Virus record (IMG/VR): IMGVR_UViG_3300028008_001597
Coordinates: 1-31,882 of that record
Length of the DNA: 31,882 nucleotides
Origin: a virus
Reading direction: 5' to 3' (one strand)
Shown here: piece by piece, positions 4,654 to 31,445 of the stretch
Numbering within the stretch: the first letter of the stretch is position 1
How the letters are laid out: each line of letters starts with the position of its first letter
Translations under genes and position numbers: made by a program
Notes under the pieces: generated by a model
What the model saw: the letters and a program-made list of their open reading frames with translations, nothing else
The model's database searches: none
Told to the model about the DNA's origin: nothing

Positions 4654-5415
4654 ATGCAAATTAGAGAATTTTCAAAGCCGCTAACGGCAGCAAAACTAAA
4701 TGAAAGCCTAGCAAAACGCTTTGGCTCAAAAATAAACATCGATGAGTTTACAACTGAACAACTTCAAGATGTCCGTAACAAGTTACGCACTAAAGTATTC
4801 AATGTTGAAACAAACGAAGCATTTGATGCAGTTCAAAACAATGATCACAGCAAAAACAAATTGTTTTTAGATGTAGTAAACGCTGCACTAGATGAGCGTG
4901 ATGATGTAAGTGTTGCAATTGATGAAGCAATTGAATCGCTAAACGAAGGCGAAGAAGACAAAGCAGAGCTAGTAATGGCAGCTAAGGACATGGTTGATCG
5001 TGTTACTGGTTGGATGGAAGACACTGCTGAAATGCAAACTGAGTCAATGCTAGAACTTGCAGATGCTATCCGTGACGAAATGGGCAGTGAGCAAGCCGAA
5101 GCATTTACTGCAAGTGTTAAGCCTGCACTAGAAGCAATGTATGGTGTAATGGAAACAACACGCCAAACACTAACACAAGGTGTTGGTATGCTAACAGGCG
5201 AAGCTGAGCCAATGGATACAATGGGTGCAGAAGATCCAGGCATGGAAGATCCAGCAATGGAACCAACTGATGATATGGATGCAGCAGCTGAAGTACCAGT
5301 AGATGGTGAAGTAGAAGATGACTTTGGTGCAGCAGACGCAGCAGCCGGCGGTGAAGAACTAGGCGGACGTGAAAAGCGTGAAAGCAGAGATAATTCAAAA
5401 AAAAAGCTCAAATAA
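4654..5415 (+). CDS. Head-core-like acidic protein, frame-0 product of a slippery gene
   Basis: 253 residues. It begins MQIREFSKPLTAAKLNESLA, has a helical body (AELVMAAKDMVDRVTGWMED), then a low-complexity Glu/Ala/Met/Pro acidic stretch (about 185-240) and a basic end. This is the shape of a prohead core or scaffold-like protein that is conserved in T4-like marine phages. The frame stops at 5415 just after a run of nine A. The frame one base back stays open for another 109 codons and reads as protein (see 5406-5732). Either the A run is a site of -1 ribosomal frameshifting, or it carries a one-base sequence error. Confidence 0.75.
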   Translation: MQIREFSKPLTAAKLNESLAKRFGSKINIDEFTTEQLQDVRNKLRTKVFNVETNEAFDAVQNNDHSKNKLFLDVVNAALDERDDVSVAIDEAIESLNEGEEDKAELVMAAKDMVDRVTGWMEDTAEMQTESMLELADAIRDEMGSEQAEAFTASVKPALEAMYGVMETTRQTLTQGVGMLTGEAEPMDTMGAEDPGMEDPAMEPTDDMDAAAEVPVDGEVEDDFGAADAAAGGEELGGREKRESRDNSKKKLK

Positions 5416-5809: not shown

Positions 5810-6229
5810 ATGGCATATTCAGCTAAAGTAGTTCAGCGTTTTGAAGACGTTCTGAACAACCCACAAAGTCACGGCGTAGGACGCTTTGACCCTAACGATC
5901 CCAATATAGCAACAGGAATGACAGGAGCACCAGCGTGTGGCGATGTTATGAAACTTGATTTAAAAGTTAATCCTGATACAGATGTTATAGAGGACGTAAA
6001 GTTTAAAACATATGGTTGCGGTAGTGCAATAGCAAGTTCAACTATGTTTGTTGAAATGCTAAAAGGACTTACTATGACACAAGCATTAGAAATCAAAGAC
6101 AAAGATATTGCTGATGCATTAGAATTACCCCCAATTAAATTACATTGTTCTGTACTAGCAGAGGATTCAATTAAGAAAGCTCTAAAACACTGGGACGAAA
6201 AGAAAGCACACCGACAACATAACGGTTGA
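5810..6229 (+). CDS. iscU: IscU iron-sulfur cluster scaffold
   Basis: 139 residues, close to the usual ~128. All key scaffold features are present: Cys43 with Asp45 (ACGDVMKL), Cys70 (YGCGSAIASS), His112-Cys113 (LHCSVLAEDS), and the LPPIK motif at 106-110 that binds the HscA chaperone in bacteria. IscU holds nascent [2Fe-2S] clusters made with IscS and passes them to targets. The intact ligands and chaperone motif suggest it can work with host Isc machinery. No iscS, hscA or ferredoxin gene is nearby. The next gene is a Nfu-type carrier, so the two form a cluster-building pair. Family identity is certain from sequence; benefit to the phage is inference. Confidence 0.95.
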   Translation: MAYSAKVVQRFEDVLNNPQSHGVGRFDPNDPNIATGMTGAPACGDVMKLDLKVNPDTDVIEDVKFKTYGCGSAIASSTMFVEMLKGLTMTQALEIKDKDIADALELPPIKLHCSVLAEDSIKKALKHWDEKKAHRQHNG

Positions 6230-6254
6230 CAAAACACTTATTTGGTGTTATTAT
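6226..6254 (+). promoter_or_regulatory. Sigma70-like promoter for the nfu-like gene
   Basis: TTGACA (6226-6231), 17-base spacer, TATTAT (6249-6254). The -35 overlaps the iscU stop codon. Downstream is AGGAGA and the ATG at 6275. Confidence 0.7.
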
Positions 6255-6274
6255 TAATACTAATAGGAGAACTT

Positions 6275-6634
6275 ATGACTGAAAGACCATACGAAGATAT
6301 TGTTAAAAACATTACAGAAGTAATGGAACAATACGTAACACCGTCAGTACAGCAACATGGCGGAGAAGTTAACTTTGTTAGCTTTGAAAACGGTTGTGTA
6401 ACTGTACAACTTAGCGGAGCATGTTCAGGTTGTGCAGGTAGTACAATGACACTAAAACACGGCATTGAACAAATGATGACTCAACTTATACCAGAAGTAC
6501 TAAGTGTTGACGGTATTGATGATCCTTTTTCTACAGTTGATCCTTATTACATGCACGACCCATTTGGTGACGCACAGTTAGAATCAATTAGAATGTTAGA
6601 GGAATTAGATGAGCCTAATAATAGAGAAGTATAA
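6275..6634 (+). CDS. Nfu-type (NifU C-terminal domain) iron-sulfur carrier
   Basis: 119 residues from the ATG at 6275, chosen for its AGGAGA ribosome site; an upstream in-frame TTG at 6242 falls inside the promoter. Residues 10-80 form the NifU C-terminal fold with the cluster-binding C50-x-x-C53 in GACSGCAGSTMTLK. Such proteins carry [4Fe-4S] clusters to apo-proteins. A 40-residue acidic tail (DDPFSTVDPYYMHDPFGDAQ...) is extra and not recognised. It overlaps the next gene by 26 bases. Together with IscU it forms an Fe-S module. Confidence 0.9.
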   Translation: MTERPYEDIVKNITEVMEQYVTPSVQQHGGEVNFVSFENGCVTVQLSGACSGCAGSTMTLKHGIEQMMTQLIPEVLSVDGIDDPFSTVDPYYMHDPFGDAQLESIRMLEELDEPNNREV

Positions 6635-16980: not shown

Positions 16981-17150
16981 TGTGGATTGTCTGGGCTAAA
17001 GCCTTAGGGAGTAAGGCCTTCGACGAAGATAAAAAGGCTGACAAGGTTGCATTAATTAGAACTTTTATAGTTTTATTTGAAGTACTTGTTGGTCTTTTTA
17101 TCATCTTAAATGCAATGGCAAACCACGGATGGGGACTGATAGGACTATGA
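16980..17150 (+). CDS. 56-residue single-span membrane protein
   Basis: TAATG overlap with the preceding stop. The product is MWIVWAKALGSKAFDEDKKA, then a hydrophobic helix (about 27-47; TFIVLFEVLVGLFIILNAM) and a short end HGWGLIGL. One membrane span. Function unknown; part of a run of coupled small genes. Confidence 0.55.
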   Translation: MWIVWAKALGSKAFDEDKKADKVALIRTFIVLFEVLVGLFIILNAMANHGWGLIGL

Positions 17151-17314
17151 ATCCAACACCAAGAAAAACTGACGATGAAACAAAAAGATTAATGGACGAA
17201 TTTTTAAAGAACGGCGGAAAGATCACACAATGCGAGCCGTTTGCTAGAACAGAAGATATTCAAATTAAAGGCGGCTTTTATGGTCGTAAGAAAAAGAAGA
17301 AAGAAACAGAATGA
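17147..17314 (+). CDS. Small basic hypothetical protein
   Basis: 55 residues from the ATG at 17147, chosen because it overlaps the upstream stop as ATGA; an in-frame ATG at 17129 lies inside the previous gene. Reads MNPTPRKTDDETKRLMDEFLKNGGKITQC then a basic tail with GRKKKKKE. Similar small proteins occur in T4-like marine phages. Function unknown. Confidence 0.6.
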   Translation: MNPTPRKTDDETKRLMDEFLKNGGKITQCEPFARTEDIQIKGGFYGRKKKKKETE

Positions 17315-17610
17315 AGTGTGAAGCAGGTGATGTTGCAAAAATATTATTTTCAGTTAATCCTGCTAACATTGGTAGGATTGTACGGGTAGTTGAATACATT
17401 GGCGAGTTTACAGAACGTGAAAAGTTTCAATATAATGGAATGCCGTGTATGGCTCCAATCTCAGACAACTACTGGTGGATTGAAGCAGAAGACTTAACAA
17501 TACAACTAGGACCAAGTCCTCGTGCTTATATTGCTGACACATGGTTAGAGCCAATTAAGCCTGAAAAAGAATTTACTAGATCAAAAGCAGAGATTGAAAT
17601 AACAGTATGA
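17311..17610 (+). CDS. Conserved hypothetical protein
   Basis: 99 residues, beta-rich, with an SH3-like feel at the start (CEAGDVAKILFSVNPANIGRIVRVVEYIG) and a Trp/Tyr-rich segment (SDNYWWIEAEDL). Overlaps both neighbours by four bases (ATGA on each side). Precedes the halogenase. No catalytic motif; function unknown. Confidence 0.65.
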   Translation: MKCEAGDVAKILFSVNPANIGRIVRVVEYIGEFTEREKFQYNGMPCMAPISDNYWWIEAEDLTIQLGPSPRAYIADTWLEPIKPEKEFTRSKAEIEITV

Positions 17611-18983
17611 GCAAGTTGAACAGTGTTTGTATCTTTGGTGGAGGCAGTGCAGGCTGGTTAACAGCTCTTGCTTTGCGCACCTACTTACCTGAAGTACATA
17701 TTACAATTGCTATATCCAGCAAACACACAAACATAGGTGTTGGCGAAAGTACACAGCCAGACTTACTAGACCTATTAGCACATTGTAACATAGACATACA
17801 AGACTTTTGTAAGCAAGTTAGTGCTACACAAAAGAAAGGTATATATTACGCTAATTGGAATACTATTGGTACATACTTTTGGCATCCGTTTACTTCATTA
17901 ACAGAGACAGGTACTTACACAAGAGCGCATCACTATAATGTAATGCACAAGCGTGATCCAAACAACTATCCGCTTGAAGACTATTACAAGCGAGTGCATC
18001 CTGAGTACAAGGATTACGCACTACACATTGATGCAGACAAAATGGCACTATACTTGCGGAACGTTTTATCTAACTCTGTAGAGATAATTGACTTTGATGA
18101 TTATGTATTGCACGAAAGTAACAACAAAATAGATTGCATCACTGTAGACGGTAAAGATATTAAAAGTGACCTGTATGTAGACTGCACAGGATTTAGTAGA
18201 GTACTTGCAGATGCAATAGGTAATATTGAGACAGATGAATATGTAGGTAATGTCAATGCCGCATTGTTTGCACGTATACCTTATGGCAAAACTAAACCTA
18301 TACCTTATACTAAAGCAGACGCTTGGGGCAAAGGTTGGTGTTGGACTATTCCGTTAGAATCAAGGATAGGCAGTGGTTGTGTTTATAACACAGACTTTTG
18401 TAAGAAAGAAGAAGCAATAGATCATTTTATTGACTACTGGCAAGGTGCAATAACTAAAAAAGATATAAGGTCTGTTGAGTTTGAATCAGATAGTTTATTA
18501 GAGCCTTGGAAGTCAAATGTAGTAACAATAGGATTAAGTGCAGGATTTGTCGAACCATTAGAAGCTACAGGTATAAGTTGGTTTGTATTGTCAGCACAAA
18601 TGCTAGGATTAACATTGCGGAACAGATACTTTGATAGTGGTGTTAGAATGTCCTACAACGGATCCATGCGCGGCTTCATAGAAGATGTACAAGACTTTAT
18701 TGATGTACATTACGCACTAAGTCATCGTAACGATACAGAGTTTTGGAGATACCAAACTATACGAAAGAGACATCCTAGACTAGAAAAACGTTTAGAGATA
18801 TACAAACAACAGATGCCAAACAAGAATAATAGGCAAGGAAATATACCTTGGGCATTTAATGATGTGTCATGGATAGATATATTAACAGGTTACCACTTTG
18901 ACTTTGATGATCAATCTATACCAGATCATTTAATAAAAGAAATGGAAACAGAATTGCAAGAGGTAGCAAATGATCTTCTTTAA
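17607..18983 (+). CDS. Flavin-dependent tryptophan-halogenase-type enzyme
   Basis: 458 residues, slightly shorter than the bacterial ~510-540. FAD-binding GGGSAGW at 11-17, catalytic-lysine segment KKGIYYANW with Lys77 at the place of PrnA Lys79, the GWCWTIP motif at 244-250 (halogenase WxWxIP) and FVEPLEATG at 315-323 with the glutamate that assists lysine. All key residues look intact, so it should chlorinate or brominate a substrate using FADH2. The substrate is unknown. T4-like marine phages commonly carry halogenase homologues. It overlaps the next gene by 14 bases; the two are probably partners. Confidence 0.88.
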   Translation: MSKLNSVCIFGGGSAGWLTALALRTYLPEVHITIAISSKHTNIGVGESTQPDLLDLLAHCNIDIQDFCKQVSATQKKGIYYANWNTIGTYFWHPFTSLTETGTYTRAHHYNVMHKRDPNNYPLEDYYKRVHPEYKDYALHIDADKMALYLRNVLSNSVEIIDFDDYVLHESNNKIDCITVDGKDIKSDLYVDCTGFSRVLADAIGNIETDEYVGNVNAALFARIPYGKTKPIPYTKADAWGKGWCWTIPLESRIGSGCVYNTDFCKKEEAIDHFIDYWQGAITKKDIRSVEFESDSLLEPWKSNVVTIGLSAGFVEPLEATGISWFVLSAQMLGLTLRNRYFDSGVRMSYNGSMRGFIEDVQDFIDVHYALSHRNDTEFWRYQTIRKRHPRLEKRLEIYKQQMPNKNNRQGNIPWAFNDVSWIDILTGYHFDFDDQSIPDHLIKEMETELQEVANDLL

Positions 18984-19781: not shown

Positions 19782-20009
19782 ATGTGTTCACCGTATGTAC
19801 GTAAAGAAGCTAATAGATACTTCTGGATCGTTAAAGGGCATCTCATTCCAAAATCAGAACCAGACTACGTAATCGAAGGATATTTTGACAGCTATTTTAA
19901 AAGGCTGTGGAATAATGAATCTCAATGTTTAGATTTATATGAACAAGGATTCGAACAAGCATATACATTAGCAGAAAAGGAAAGACTAAAATGTTATCAA
20001 AAGGACTAG
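19782..20009 (+). CDS. Small hypothetical protein
   Basis: 75 residues with a strong GAGGAG ribosome site. Rich in aromatic residues (RYFWIVKGHLIPKSEPDYVIEGYFDSYFKRLW) followed by a helix (LYEQGFEQAYTLAEKERLK). Two cysteines at residues 2 and 46 are not in a metal-site pattern. Overlaps the next gene by 19 bases. Function unknown. Confidence 0.6.
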   Translation: MCSPYVRKEANRYFWIVKGHLIPKSEPDYVIEGYFDSYFKRLWNNESQCLDLYEQGFEQAYTLAEKERLKCYQKD

Positions 20010-20327: not shown

Positions 20328-20440
20328 ACGCATACTCACAAATGTAATACTTCTTTTGTACTTTTGGTGTATAGAAGAAAATCCAGAAATGGTCAGACTA
20401 AAAAAGAAAGGTGAACAAACTTCTATTATTGAAATAGAGG

Positions 20441-20471
20441 TTGACATCTAGTATTACTTGTGTTATAAATA
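20441..20471 (+). promoter_or_regulatory. Combined sigma70 and T4-late-type promoter for tmRNA
   Basis: TTGACA (20441-20446), 17-base spacer, TATAAA (20464-20469); extended to TATAAATA (20464-20471), it is also the exact T4 late consensus. It therefore could fire both early and late in infection. Confidence 0.7.
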
Positions 20472-20477
20472 GTATTG

Positions 20478-20750
20478 TAACGTTGAAGCAATTCAAACGA
20501 CGAGCTGGACTCGGGGGCGGTACCCGACAGCTCCACCATAAACACATTCTGGAAGATCAGGTTGTCCGACAGGTTGAAGGGTGTGTTTATGATGGGGCTG
20601 AACTAGGATCGACAGGCGGATTAGTAGAAGAGTGGAGTTGCCCGGATGTAAGCTCGGTTAACGCGAACAAACTTAATAATTGCAAACGCAAATTATTCAT
20701 TAGCAGCCTAGGCTGTTACGAGGTAGTTAGGCCTTGTTACCAAACATAGC
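20478..20750 (+). ncRNA. ssrA: Circularly permuted (two-piece) tmRNA
   Basis: tmRNA rescues stalled ribosomes and adds a degradation tag. The acceptor end comes first: T-arm TCGGG/CCCGA with a 7-base loop, then CAGCTCC-A-CCA ending at 20538. The 5' end of the mature tRNA-like part comes second: GGGGCTG at 20594-20600, pairing with CAGCTCC (one G-U), followed by the tmRNA-typical AACTAGGATCGACAGG. Between them ATAAACACA (20538-20546) pairs with TGTGTTTAT (20582-20590), bringing the ends together for excision. The tag frame begins at the resume codon GCA 20682 and encodes ANANYSLAA followed by TAG (20709-20711); the LAA end is the ClpXP degron. This split layout is known for alphaproteobacteria and some cyanobacteria. 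Outer boundaries are approximate. Confidence 0.9.
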
Positions 20751-20751
20751 A

Positions 20752-20779
20752 GGAAAGCACCTTCGGGTGCTTTCTTTTT
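20752..20779 (+). terminator. Rho-independent terminator of tmRNA
   Basis: AAAGCACC, a TTCG tetraloop and GGTGCTTT form a perfect 8-bp stem followed by CTTTTT. Confidence 0.92.
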
Positions 20780-20916: not shown

Positions 20917-21354
20917 ATGAAGAATTTATTATCGACAGTAGCCGTTATGGTTGCACTATCTACTCCTGCGTTTGCCGCAGACACTACAGTTGAAATGCTA
21001 AACAAGCGTGACGACGGAGCCAAAATGGTATACTCACAAGACATCACACGTATTGATGCAGGCGATACTGTTACTTGGACACCAAACTCCAAAGGACACA
21101 ATGTAGAATTTATTGCAGGTCCAGATGGTTGGAAAGCACCAAAGAAATCAAAACTTAGTAAAGAATATGCTTACACATTTGACACACCAGGCGTATACTT
21201 GTACCAGTGTACACCACACAAATCAATGGGTATGATTGCTATTGTAATTGTAGGTGAAGCAGATCCAAAAGTAGTAAAGGATCGATTAAAAGATGTCAAA
21301 GTAAAAGGCAAGTCAAAGAAAAAACTAAAAGCACTGTTGGCTGATCTAGGCTAA
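20917..21354 (+). CDS. Secreted pseudoazurin (type I copper protein)
   Basis: 145 residues with a clear signal peptide (MKNLLSTVAVMVALSTPAFA, cut before residue 21). The mature part is a cupredoxin: ligand His61 in KGHNVE, then C98-T-P-H101-K-S-M-G-M106, which is the pseudoazurin signature (CTPHYxMGM) rather than plastocyanin. It carries single electrons in the periplasm. A 30-residue Lys-rich tail (KVKGKSKKKLKALLADLG) extends it, as in pseudoazurins. Own promoter; three bases before a DoxX-like gene. Pseudoazurin in a phage is unusual. Confidence 0.93.
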   Translation: MKNLLSTVAVMVALSTPAFAADTTVEMLNKRDDGAKMVYSQDITRIDAGDTVTWTPNSKGHNVEFIAGPDGWKAPKKSKLSKEYAYTFDTPGVYLYQCTPHKSMGMIAIVIVGEADPKVVKDRLKDVKVKGKSKKKLKALLADLG

Positions 21355-27528: not shown

Positions 27529-27936
27529 TTGAAGAAAATTAACATTATTACATCACCTGACGTATTACATAACGACAGTTTAAACATACTGACGGTGTAT
27601 CCAAGCAAACTGATACAAGACGAGCTACAAAACAACTTCTTAGCAACTACAGAAGCTGATGTTAACGTATATGTATACGATAAGCCTATTCAAGTCAAGG
27701 ACGAAGTTGACTGGCTGCTAACAGCATTTAGAACATGTGATGTAGCAATAATTGACGTAGATAACTCATCACCATGGACTAGAGACCTTTTAAGCTATAT
27801 GATAGCTAAAAACAAAACTTATTGGTTGACAAACAGCCAAGATTCAGTATATAATAGTTTAAGTAACAATAAAGTTTATAACTTAGACTTTTTATCTAAT
27901 ATAGGAGATAACTTTGAGAATGAGACGAAACAATAA
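27529..27936 (+). CDS. Conserved T4-like marine phage protein
   Basis: 135 residues from a TTG start, seven bases after the previous stop. Beta-alpha pattern (KINIITSPDVLHNDSLNILTVYP, ADVNVYVYD, CDVAIIDVDNSSPWTRDLLSYMIAKNKTYWLT) suggests a Rossmann-like fold without a nucleotide motif. Its last part hosts the bS21 promoter and it overlaps the bS21 gene by 23 bases. From memory it is widespread in T4-like marine phages. Function unknown. Confidence 0.65.
   Translation: MKKINIITSPDVLHNDSLNILTVYPSKLIQDELQNNFLATTEADVNVYVYDKPIQVKDEVDWLLTAFRTCDVAIIDVDNSSPWTRDLLSYMIAKNKTYWLTNSQDSVYNSLSNNKVYNLDFLSNIGDNFENETKQ
27826..27855 (+). promoter_or_regulatory. Consensus sigma70-like promoter inside a gene
   Basis: TTGACA (27826-27831), 18-base spacer, TATAAT (27850-27855), both perfect consensus, about 60 bases before the bS21 gene and inside the previous coding region. 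Confidence 0.7.
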
Positions 27937-28186
27937 CGACGACCAGTTCAAGCGAGGGTTGAGTGTAGAAGTACGTAATGGCGATTTTAATTTTGCATTG
28001 CGCAAATTTAAGAAGAAAGTTGCAGAGGACGGCATCTTACAAGAACTGCGTAACCGCGAATTTTTCGAGAAACCAAGTTTAAAACGTAAAAAAGCAAAAG
28101 CAGCCGGCAGAGCACGTTGGTTGAAAAAAATAGAAAAAATGAATGAAGGCATGCCAACAGGCAAACATAAAAATCCGAAAAGGTAA
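27914..28186 (+). CDS. rpsU: Ribosomal protein bS21
   Basis: 90 residues from a TTG six bases after AGGAG (an ATG six bases on is the alternative). VRNGDFNFALRKFKKKVAEDGILQELRNREFFEKPSLKRKKAKA is a full bS21 sequence, with the R-x-E-F-x-E-K-P signature intact, followed by a basic tail. bS21 sits on the 30S platform next to the anti-Shine-Dalgarno end of 16S rRNA and influences mRNA choice. Phage copies can replace the host protein; pelagiphages are known to carry bS21. Own consensus promoter upstream; guaC follows seven bases after its stop. Confidence 0.95.
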   Translation: MRMRRNNNDDQFKRGLSVEVRNGDFNFALRKFKKKVAEDGILQELRNREFFEKPSLKRKKAKAAGRARWLKKIEKMNEGMPTGKHKNPKR

Positions 28187-29899: not shown

Positions 29900-30208
29900 A
29901 TGACAGTTGATGCAGAAGTTGTAATTGACGAAAAGATTAAACGCATTGTTAAAGAACCGCCTAAGTATAATGTTATTATGCTGAACGACGATGCTACTCC
30001 AATGGAGTGGGTTATGGGTGTATTGAAAGAAATATTTAAACATAGTGACACAGACGCTGAAGCACTTACAATGAAGATTCATAACGAAGGTTCTGCTGTA
30101 GTAGGTACATATAAGTACGAAGTAGCAGAACAAAAGAGTATTGAAGCCGTAACTGCAAGTCGTAATCATGGCTTCCCTCTTCAATTAAAAATAGAAGAAG
30201 CAGAATGA
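29900..30208 (+). CDS. clpS: ClpS adaptor protein
   Basis: 102 residues. KYNVIMLNDDATPMEWVMGVLKEIFKHS is the ClpS core with the N-D-D/T-P-M-E motif that lines the N-degron pocket, followed by MKIHNEGSAVVGTYKYEVAEQK. ClpS binds ClpA and steers it to N-degron substrates and away from SsrA-tagged proteins. The N-terminal arm (VIDEKIKRIVKEP) needed for ClpA contact is present. It overlaps heme oxygenase by four bases. Confidence 0.9.
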   Translation: MTVDAEVVIDEKIKRIVKEPPKYNVIMLNDDATPMEWVMGVLKEIFKHSDTDAEALTMKIHNEGSAVVGTYKYEVAEQKSIEAVTASRNHGFPLQLKIEEAE

Positions 30209-30762
30209 GCAATTTAAAAGAATTAACTTGGGAACATCATAAAAATGCAGAGCGTCAAACCTTTGTAAAAGAGATGTTTGCAAAAGAACCACAAATAAGT
30301 CACGAACGGTATGCAACATACCTATTTAATCAACACCCGCAATATAACATGTTAGAAATGCTTGCTATGATGCAAGGACTATTTGATGGTATGCCTGAAC
30401 TACGCAGAGCACCATCAATACATGAAGACTATCAAGAGATGTGGGGAGAAGCAAATCCTAACCAACCTCCACTAATGCCAGTAGTAAAAGAATACATGGA
30501 CCACCTAATGAGTATCAAAGACGATCCTGATAAACTTATGGCACATGTTTATGTAAGACACATGGGCGACCTAAGTGGTGGACAGATGATTGCTAAACGT
30601 GTACCAGGTCAAGGACGCATGTACAAGTTTGATAAAGGTCATGACGAGCTTAAAGAAATAGTACGTTCAAAACTAAATGACAATATGGCAGATGAAGCAA
30701 AATTGTGCTTCGACTTTGCAACTAAGATGTTTGTACAATTAGGAGAGGCAAAAGAATCGTGA
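30205..30762 (+). CDS. Heme oxygenase
   Basis: 185 residues. Proximal-helix motif with H12-K-N-A-E16 (TWEHHKNAER) and distal-helix motif VRHM-G121-D-L-S-G-G126-Q that lies over heme. It opens heme to biliverdin, CO and iron using an electron donor. ATGA overlap with clpS and GTGA overlap with the bilin reductase gene show one operon, so biliverdin is likely the direct substrate of the next enzyme. Confidence 0.92.
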   Translation: MSNLKELTWEHHKNAERQTFVKEMFAKEPQISHERYATYLFNQHPQYNMLEMLAMMQGLFDGMPELRRAPSIHEDYQEMWGEANPNQPPLMPVVKEYMDHLMSIKDDPDKLMAHVYVRHMGDLSGGQMIAKRVPGQGRMYKFDKGHDELKEIVRSKLNDNMADEAKLCFDFATKMFVQLGEAKES

Positions 30763-31445
30763 GTGTAATTTGGGATAGACTAATAGAGTGTAAAGATGAA
30801 ATTATTAACATATTTGACGCAAGTGCAACAGAGTATCAAGAACCAGGGCTTGACCATTTTAATAATGATCTCTGGGTTAATCGCGTTTGGCGCAATGATG
30901 ATGTTAGGCGGGCTCACATTGATGTTGTAGATGCACGTGACTCTAAAGGGTTATGGATGATGCATGTATGCGTGTTTCCTGTACTTAACAATGACGGTCC
31001 TATATACGGCTTTGATGTTATTGCAGGTAAAAACAAAATGACAGGTGCATTCCACGACTTCTCAGCAAGTAGTGATCCTAACCATCCTATGATTGAAGGA
31101 TACAAAGAAGCAGTTGCAGACTTTGTTCCTAAAAAACAACGACAGCTACCAGAGTGGGCAACTAACATCTTTACAGATAAAATGCTTGCCGCTGGCAATG
31201 TAAACACAATAGAAGAAGCAGTTTCTATTATTGAACTTGCACAAGATAATCTACGTGCATACTTTGACGAGATCGGCGAGTTTACTGGATACGGCGACCG
31301 CGACTTAGTAACAGCATCGCAAAACTATTACTGTCATAATCAGCAACAAAATCCACATACTCCACGTACTATGAAAAGTTTAGGTCTAAACGAAGCTGAT
31401 GTAGATAAGTTCTGCACAGATATGTTGTTTCCTAAAATAGTATAA
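30759..31445 (+). CDS. pcyX: Ferredoxin-dependent bilin reductase, PcyX/PcyA type
   Basis: 228 residues from a GTG that overlaps the heme oxygenase stop. The core (LWVNRVWRNDDVRRAHIDVVDARDS..., MHVCVFPVLNNDGPIYGFDVIAGKNKM) is that of PcyA-family enzymes. His53 and Asp86 align by eye with PcyA His88 and Asp105; the place of PcyA Glu76 (ENR) reads VNR here. That loss and the phage setting fit PcyX, a subfamily described from marine viral metagenomes that makes phycoerythrobilin, rather than PcyA. Reduces biliverdin using ferredoxin. Subtype is by memory and eye alignment. Confidence 0.85.
   Translation: MSVIWDRLIECKDEIINIFDASATEYQEPGLDHFNNDLWVNRVWRNDDVRRAHIDVVDARDSKGLWMMHVCVFPVLNNDGPIYGFDVIAGKNKMTGAFHDFSASSDPNHPMIEGYKEAVADFVPKKQRQLPEWATNIFTDKMLAAGNVNTIEEAVSIIELAQDNLRAYFDEIGEFTGYGDRDLVTASQNYYCHNQQQNPHTPRTMKSLGLNEADVDKFCTDMLFPKIV

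Follow-up and report, generated by a model that had tools for sequence, protein, structure and literature searches.

A two-piece tmRNA gene of a putatively T4-like marine phage, and small genes that probably moved into the spacer of its relatives

Does a T4-like phage carry its own two-piece tmRNA, and what would such an RNA do during infection? The question is raised by a virus record of 31,882 bases in IMG/VR (the whole stretch is referred to here as the window). A sequence-only reading of this DNA had proposed a phage-encoded permuted tmRNA with the tag ANANYSLAA, made up of an acceptor end, an excisable hairpin, a GGGGCTG start, and a tag frame ending in LAA, with its own promoter and terminator. 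We read the gene base by base, scanned it with Rfam covariance models and ARAGORN, and folded it. All of these parts were located in the window, and the coordinates first given for the gene were correct within a few bases.

The proposed identity is borne out by two covariance models. RF04321 (tmRNA_permuted) matches positions 20477-20711 with 101.9 bits (E 5e-19) and RF01849 (alpha_tmRNA) matches 20425-20764 with 85.8 bits, both far above the respective curated cut-offs of 47 and 50 bits. ARAGORN, the other check suggested at the outset, found no tmRNA in the window. This negative result says little and does not refute the gene, because the program also missed relatives with the same tag (L072, L074, and L094); surveys based on ARAGORN undercount the two-piece tmRNAs of phages. 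A chance origin of the match is excluded by the covariance-model scores together with covariation in related genes. A 102-residue ORF over 20441-20749 was rejected as a chance frame running through the RNA gene.

The gene order is permuted, i.e., the acceptor piece with its CCA lies 5' of the piece that starts with GGGG and carries the tag, and a spacer separates the two. The gene, its promoter, and its terminator are on the plus strand, as are the two small genes (19782-20009 and 17129-17314) and the ClpS gene described below. The acceptor (tRNA-like 3') piece, at 20477-20538, is defined by the alignments to both models and by covariation of the acceptor stem and helix in relatives. It begins with the helix strand GTAAC (20477-20481), contains the T arm (20511-20527, with the loop GGCGGTA at 20516-20522), and ends with the acceptor 3' strand CAGCTCC (20528-20534), an A (20535), and an encoded CCA (20536-20538). 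The intervening segment, predicted to be excised, comprises 55 nt (20539-20593) that read and fold as a hairpin without an ORF; together with the flanking acceptor strands it folds into a single extended hairpin (-32.2 kcal/mol, z -4.9). The coding (mRNA-like 5') piece has a predicted extent of 20594-20752. Its first seven bases, GGGGCTG (20594-20600), pair with CAGCTCC in a 7-bp acceptor stem that includes G3-U70, the pair by which alanyl-tRNA synthetase recognizes its substrates. Downstream are GTTGC (20637-20641), which pairs with GTAAC to form the helix between the two pieces, and the tag frame (20682-20711), which begins at a GCA resume codon, encodes ANANYSLAA with its LAA degron, and stops at TAG. 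The T-loop had been described as a departure from the standard loop, but it is the alpha_tmRNA consensus in the RF01849 alignment, and GGCGGTA or GGCAGTA is the loop in 171 of 175 collected viral permuted tmRNAs. Both this loop and the body of the RNA, which is of the alpha type in the same alignment, are features of the alphaproteobacterial subtype.

These relatives were collected from viral contigs, some of which may be prophage or host DNA, and comprise at least 175 distinct genes for permuted tmRNAs; the sample is non-random, most virus records are fragments, and the counts are lower bounds. G3-U70 is present in all 175. Acceptor pairs 4, 5, and 6 each occur as two to five base-pair types that changed in a paired manner; perfect pairing of the stem is partly selected, because extraction required at least six of the seven acceptor pairs, and the variety of pair types is unaffected by this requirement. 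The helix between the pieces shows compensatory changes as well: GTAAC/GTTGC in the window is replaced by GTAAC/GTTAC, GCAAC/GTTGT, TAAAC/GTTTA, or AGAAC/GTTCT, all fully paired. The coding piece also contains a small hairpin whose strands are CCG/CGG in 68 cases and the reverse, CGG/CCG, in 14. Among 109 related intervening segments of at least 40 nt, 101 have a closing stem of at least seven pairs, as compared to 3.7% of shuffled sequences. Many contigs preserve an intact tag frame, including its LAA end and its stop, in spite of synonymous changes; this set was itself collected by the tag.

The promoter, TTGACA-N17-TATAAATA at 20441-20471, is an exact match, as had been noted from the sequence. 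It is kept with its 17-nt spacing in 20 of 20 ANANYSLAA genes listed (19 relatives tested), and of 120 related genes, 101 retain the full octamer TATAAATA, accompanied in 93 of them by a TTGAC-type -35 element. TATAAATA has the sequence of the T4-type late promoter, which is used by gp55/gp33/gp45, and the promoter here is possibly read by both the host sigma-70-type and the T4-type late machinery. Late transcription of this tmRNA remains a guess, as the window shows no enrichment of TATAAATA (two occurrences versus 3.3 expected by chance); a constitutive or early host-type promoter would be enough. The gene ends in an intrinsic terminator, GAAAGCACC-TTCG-GGTGCTTTC-TTTTT (20753-20779), that folds as a hairpin with a T tract, though it is absent from the list of a simple terminator scan, and relatives retain the hairpin despite altered sequence.

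Whose gene is it? When 84,980 bacterial and archaeal genomes were searched with a degenerate pattern for the tag ANANYSLAA, none contained it, so that it differs from every sampled cellular tag; the pattern did match at least 29 viral contigs, which stem from many metagenomes. Of the 29 contigs listed, 22 have the full gene with the GGCGGTA T arm, six have the same gene with another T arm, and one is interrupted at the contig end. Judged by this distribution, the tmRNA in the window is a phage gene. The lack of cellular matches also defeated an attempt to identify the host through the tag. The record is filed as a virus, and its NrdA is nearest to that of marine cyanophages; a 253-residue ORF at 4654-5415 had no phage match in a protein search.

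We also searched for cellular counterparts. The matches listed for a pattern of the RNA body were two contigs of metagenome-assembled genomes (MAGs), L146 and L147, both with genes of this phage group, and they were rejected as cellular counterparts. They are filed as Neomarinimicrobiota and Rickettsiales and carry phage-type genes together with a permuted tmRNA; judging from this gene content, both are probably mis-binned phage DNA. Among the phage-type genes on the related stretch of the MAG G021 (L147) are those for NrdB, a nuclease, and a cell-wall hydrolase, in a style like that of the window. When the window gene was compared by blastn with 385 genomes of the class to which G021 belongs, bacterial tmRNAs were matched mostly via a short T-arm stretch, and the sole strong match was contig C8 of G021 itself. 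Phages are able to capture host ssrA fragments, and the gene could in principle be a non-functional copy or a decayed host gene captured by chance. Such an origin is extremely improbable in view of the compensatory changes, the intact acceptor, CCA, tag, promoter, and terminator in many contigs, and the lack of this sequence in any sampled host, barring the mis-binned phage contig.

The carriage of a permuted tmRNA by a phage, as first proposed, thus stands, but it is not new in kind: such an RNA had been regarded as established for alphaproteobacteria, and phage-borne two-piece tmRNAs have already been published. One paper reports 53 of them, found by ARAGORN in 18,146 phage genomes, 50 being marine or aquatic, and Melnitz is the phage studied among the carriers (PMC9004378). 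A 2025 database holds 79 phage tmRNAs of all forms (PMC11915505). The window copy alone is one more example of these known genes.

We put the probability at roughly nine in ten that the window holds a complete, functional permuted tmRNA gene of a putatively T4-like marine phage. This assessment draws on the covariance-model matches, the covariation in 175 relatives, the shared viral tag, the conserved promoter and terminator, the closing hairpin of the spacer, the same layout in Melnitz, and the finding of no SmpB gene in 20 viral records, mostly fragments of genomes in which SmpB or further partners may lie elsewhere. The sequences show a gene that has the parts of a working two-piece tmRNA and is maintained by selection; the course from precursor to tagged protein, and its benefit, is inferred. 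A single precursor would be made from the tmRNA's own strong promoter. Host RNase P would cleave at 20593/20594, and a host nuclease for 3' processing would act just after the CCA at 20538, so that the 55-nt hairpin is removed and two mature pieces that remain paired are left. Host AlaRS would then charge the acceptor via G3-U70, and with host SmpB the RNA would enter stalled ribosomes and add Ala and ANANYSLAA, the LAA end marking the tagged protein for ClpXP/ClpAP. During infection, this process would keep ribosomes free while mRNA is degraded. The phage may in this way control ribosome rescue and the choice of tag. Because the tag is phage-specific in the collections searched, mass spectrometry of samples from infections or from the environment could separate the proteins tagged by the phage and by the host.

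An alternative that we consider unlikely is that the processed RNA binds SmpB and ribosomes mainly as a competitor, diverting or blunting host trans-translation and protecting phage proteins, with a phage ClpS steering ClpAP off tagged proteins; in a decoy form, the phage tmRNA could titrate SmpB. A phage RNA consisting of only a tmRNA-like domain (mycobacteriophage DS6A) does inhibit tmRNA (PMC4131195, PMC11915505), and the phage tag is unlike all sampled cellular tags. The window also encodes a ClpS adaptor homologue (29900-30208; PF02617, E 1.8e-27), and of 19 other viral records that carry this tmRNA and were searched, five have ClpS as well. In E. coli, ClpS reduces the breakdown of SsrA-tagged substrates by ClpAP (PMC12493166), which is why we regard the phage ClpS as a lead: by analogy, it may modulate or steer the fate of tagged proteins. 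A pure decoy would need no intact tag, and the retention of the tag frame, LAA end, and stop with synonymous changes argues against it; this evidence is only partly independent, because the set was collected by tag.

The window contains several other genes with recognizable domains. Directly downstream of the tmRNA, at 20917-21354, is a plastocyanin/azurin-family copper protein with a signal-like N-terminus. A homologue of ribosomal protein bS21 (27914-28186; PF01165) is a second translation-related phage gene. A heme oxygenase (PF01126) is followed by a ferredoxin-dependent bilin reductase (PF05996) at 30205-31445, and this pair is like the hemO-pcyA/X cassettes known in aquatic phages (PMC11480375). 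A tryptophan-halogenase-family protein (PF04820) is encoded at 17607-18983, and adjacent proteins with NifU N-terminal and NifU C-terminal domains at 5810-6634, which suggests iron-sulphur cluster scaffold genes.

Comparison of the viral relatives revealed a mosaic structure. Spacers range from 5 to 266 nt; one tag occurs with different acceptor stems and spacers, and one spacer with different tags. For example, a 150-nt spacer family has the tag ANENFALAA in L069 and ANANYSLAA in L080, a 205-nt family has ANANYSLAA in L127 and L130 and ANDNYAPEMALAA in L211 and L247, and a 105-nt structured family has three tags (L063, L141, and L260). L132 and L135 contain an ANANYSLAA tmRNA with the ordinary T-loop TTCGAAT and the acceptor GGGGTAG/CTACTCC in an otherwise typical gene; their acceptor piece appears to have been exchanged as a module. 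Since tags, spacers, and acceptor stems occur in such differing combinations, the gene evidently recombines in modules, namely the tag piece, the spacer, and the acceptor piece.

What, then, do the longer spacers contain? In 25 of 35 distinct spacers of at least 110 nt, one complete ATG-initiated ORF fills at least 74% of the length. In 23 of these 25 the ORF is unexpected from shuffled sequences (p <=0.02), and 24 have a ribosome-site-like motif under a permissive test. All 25 ORF-filled spacers keep the seven acceptor pairs. About a dozen unrelated families can be distinguished among the ORFs, and no significant match to an endonuclease was obtained for any of them. One family exceeds its Pfam cut-off (DUF6356 in L035 and L079; PF19883, E 5e-12), and this pair differs by eight synonymous and no non-synonymous changes. 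Estimates of dN/dS are approximately 0.07 for L069/L080, 0.10 for L011/L036, and 0.08-0.14 in the L005 group; in the WHILL family they are 0.1-0.5 for most pairs and 0.6 for one very close pair. Purifying selection is thus visible at the sequence level in several families.

Might these be chance open frames in AT-rich spacer DNA? The spacers are short, and certain long ones (e.g., L014, L102, and L250) have no ORF. Chance is nevertheless quite improbable as an explanation for the fill, shuffle, and ribosome-site counts above, for the selection seen in the DUF6356 pair and in several other pairs with dN/dS of 0.07-0.2, and for a family over the Pfam cut-off. It would also have to account for eight families with homologues outside the spacer, two of them weak.

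Three of the families lie either directly upstream of the tmRNA or inside the spacer, 14-24 nt past the CCA. The WHILL family is upstream in Melnitz (70% identical) and L099 and nested in seven contigs, and the L147 family is upstream in L193 and nested in L147. The third is represented in the window by a small free-standing gene of 75 residues (19782-20009), whose relatives are upstream of the tmRNA in many contigs and nested in L097, L206, L217, and L271 (BLASTP 41% over 54 residues, E 1e-9 in one comparison; tblastn 2e-5); the spacer ORF of L097 had no match in the phage collection. Another free-standing gene in the window, of 61 residues (17129-17314), is a weak relative of the L197 spacer ORF (tblastn 42% over 31 residues, E 6e-4; blastp 3e-7 in a small set).

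These patterns point to a spacer that in this clade tolerates insertions and appears to have taken up small phage genes from its neighborhood. We consider it likely that it serves as a modular cargo slot: nested small genes with their own ribosome sites, several related to upstream neighbors, would be expressed from the tmRNA promoter and released at maturation, with tag, acceptor, and spacer exchanged independently, and the window would represent the ORF-less form. Either RNA, the precursor or the spacer once it is released, could serve for translation. Translation of the nested ORF and tmRNA maturation may be coupled, such that one transcript yields a ribosome-rescue RNA and a small protein. 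Two recurring spacer families of 103-107 nt are structured and ORF-poor (L042/L093/L122/L132 and L063/L141/L260) and occur with differing tags; the three checked (L093, L122, and L141) had no Rfam match. In the open-licence full-text literature, we came across no previous description of protein genes in a two-piece tmRNA spacer. Having conserved small genes within the discarded spacer of a structural RNA would be a new way of arranging genes, one that relies on RNA processing rather than splicing and raises the testable question of how nested translation and tmRNA maturation coexist.

Among known systems, the alphaproteobacterial two-piece tmRNA (RF01849/RF04321) shares with the window gene the permuted order, the GGCGGTA T-loop, G3-U70, the encoded CCA, the LAA tag end, and the excised spacer, whereas the window gene is phage-borne and has a 9-residue tag absent from the sampled cellular genomes. 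In 22 alphaproteobacterial genes compared, spacers are 7-58 nt long, apart from two of 103 and 165 nt, and no spacer ORF was recognized by eye in this small control.

Closer is ssrA of the Methylophilales phage Melnitz, which is filed under Kyanoviridae. It is likewise a permuted tmRNA of a T4-like marine phage (PMC9004378), with TTGACA-N17-TATAAATA and a spacer of its own, and its layout is the same as in the window. It differs in its tag, ANDNYVPVDYALAA, and in its acceptor sequence. Most of an ORF, MFKWLSKTRLVVITRDYFRERNRKADAKIPKYLSGTR..., lies in its 142-nt spacer, from which the frame continues into the tag piece, whereas the spacer in the window is a 55-nt hairpin without an ORF. At this locus (L273:373-1030), the ORF is present in the published Melnitz isolates, is unannotated, has a GGAG ribosome site, and is not mentioned in the tmRNA passages of that paper. 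The gene directly upstream of the Melnitz tmRNA is a homologue of the ORF nested in the L127 spacer. For a glutamine riboswitch like that of Melnitz, nothing passed the Rfam cut-offs within or around the window gene, nor at nine related loci.

Cargo within tmRNA genes has precedents. Permuted tmRNAs whose intervening sequence includes a tRNA-Ala or a repeat element resemble the phage clade in carrying cargo at this place, but are single cases for which no protein gene was reported (PMC11915505). The 2025 survey lists one tRNA and one repeat element in spacers, and endonuclease genes solely in group I introns (PMC11915505). A tmRNA with a group I intron and a homing endonuclease gene is similar in that a protein gene is nested in a tmRNA gene; that intron is self-splicing and encodes a LAGLIDADG endonuclease (PMC11915505), whereas the phage clade appears to use a processing spacer that holds diverse small phage proteins.
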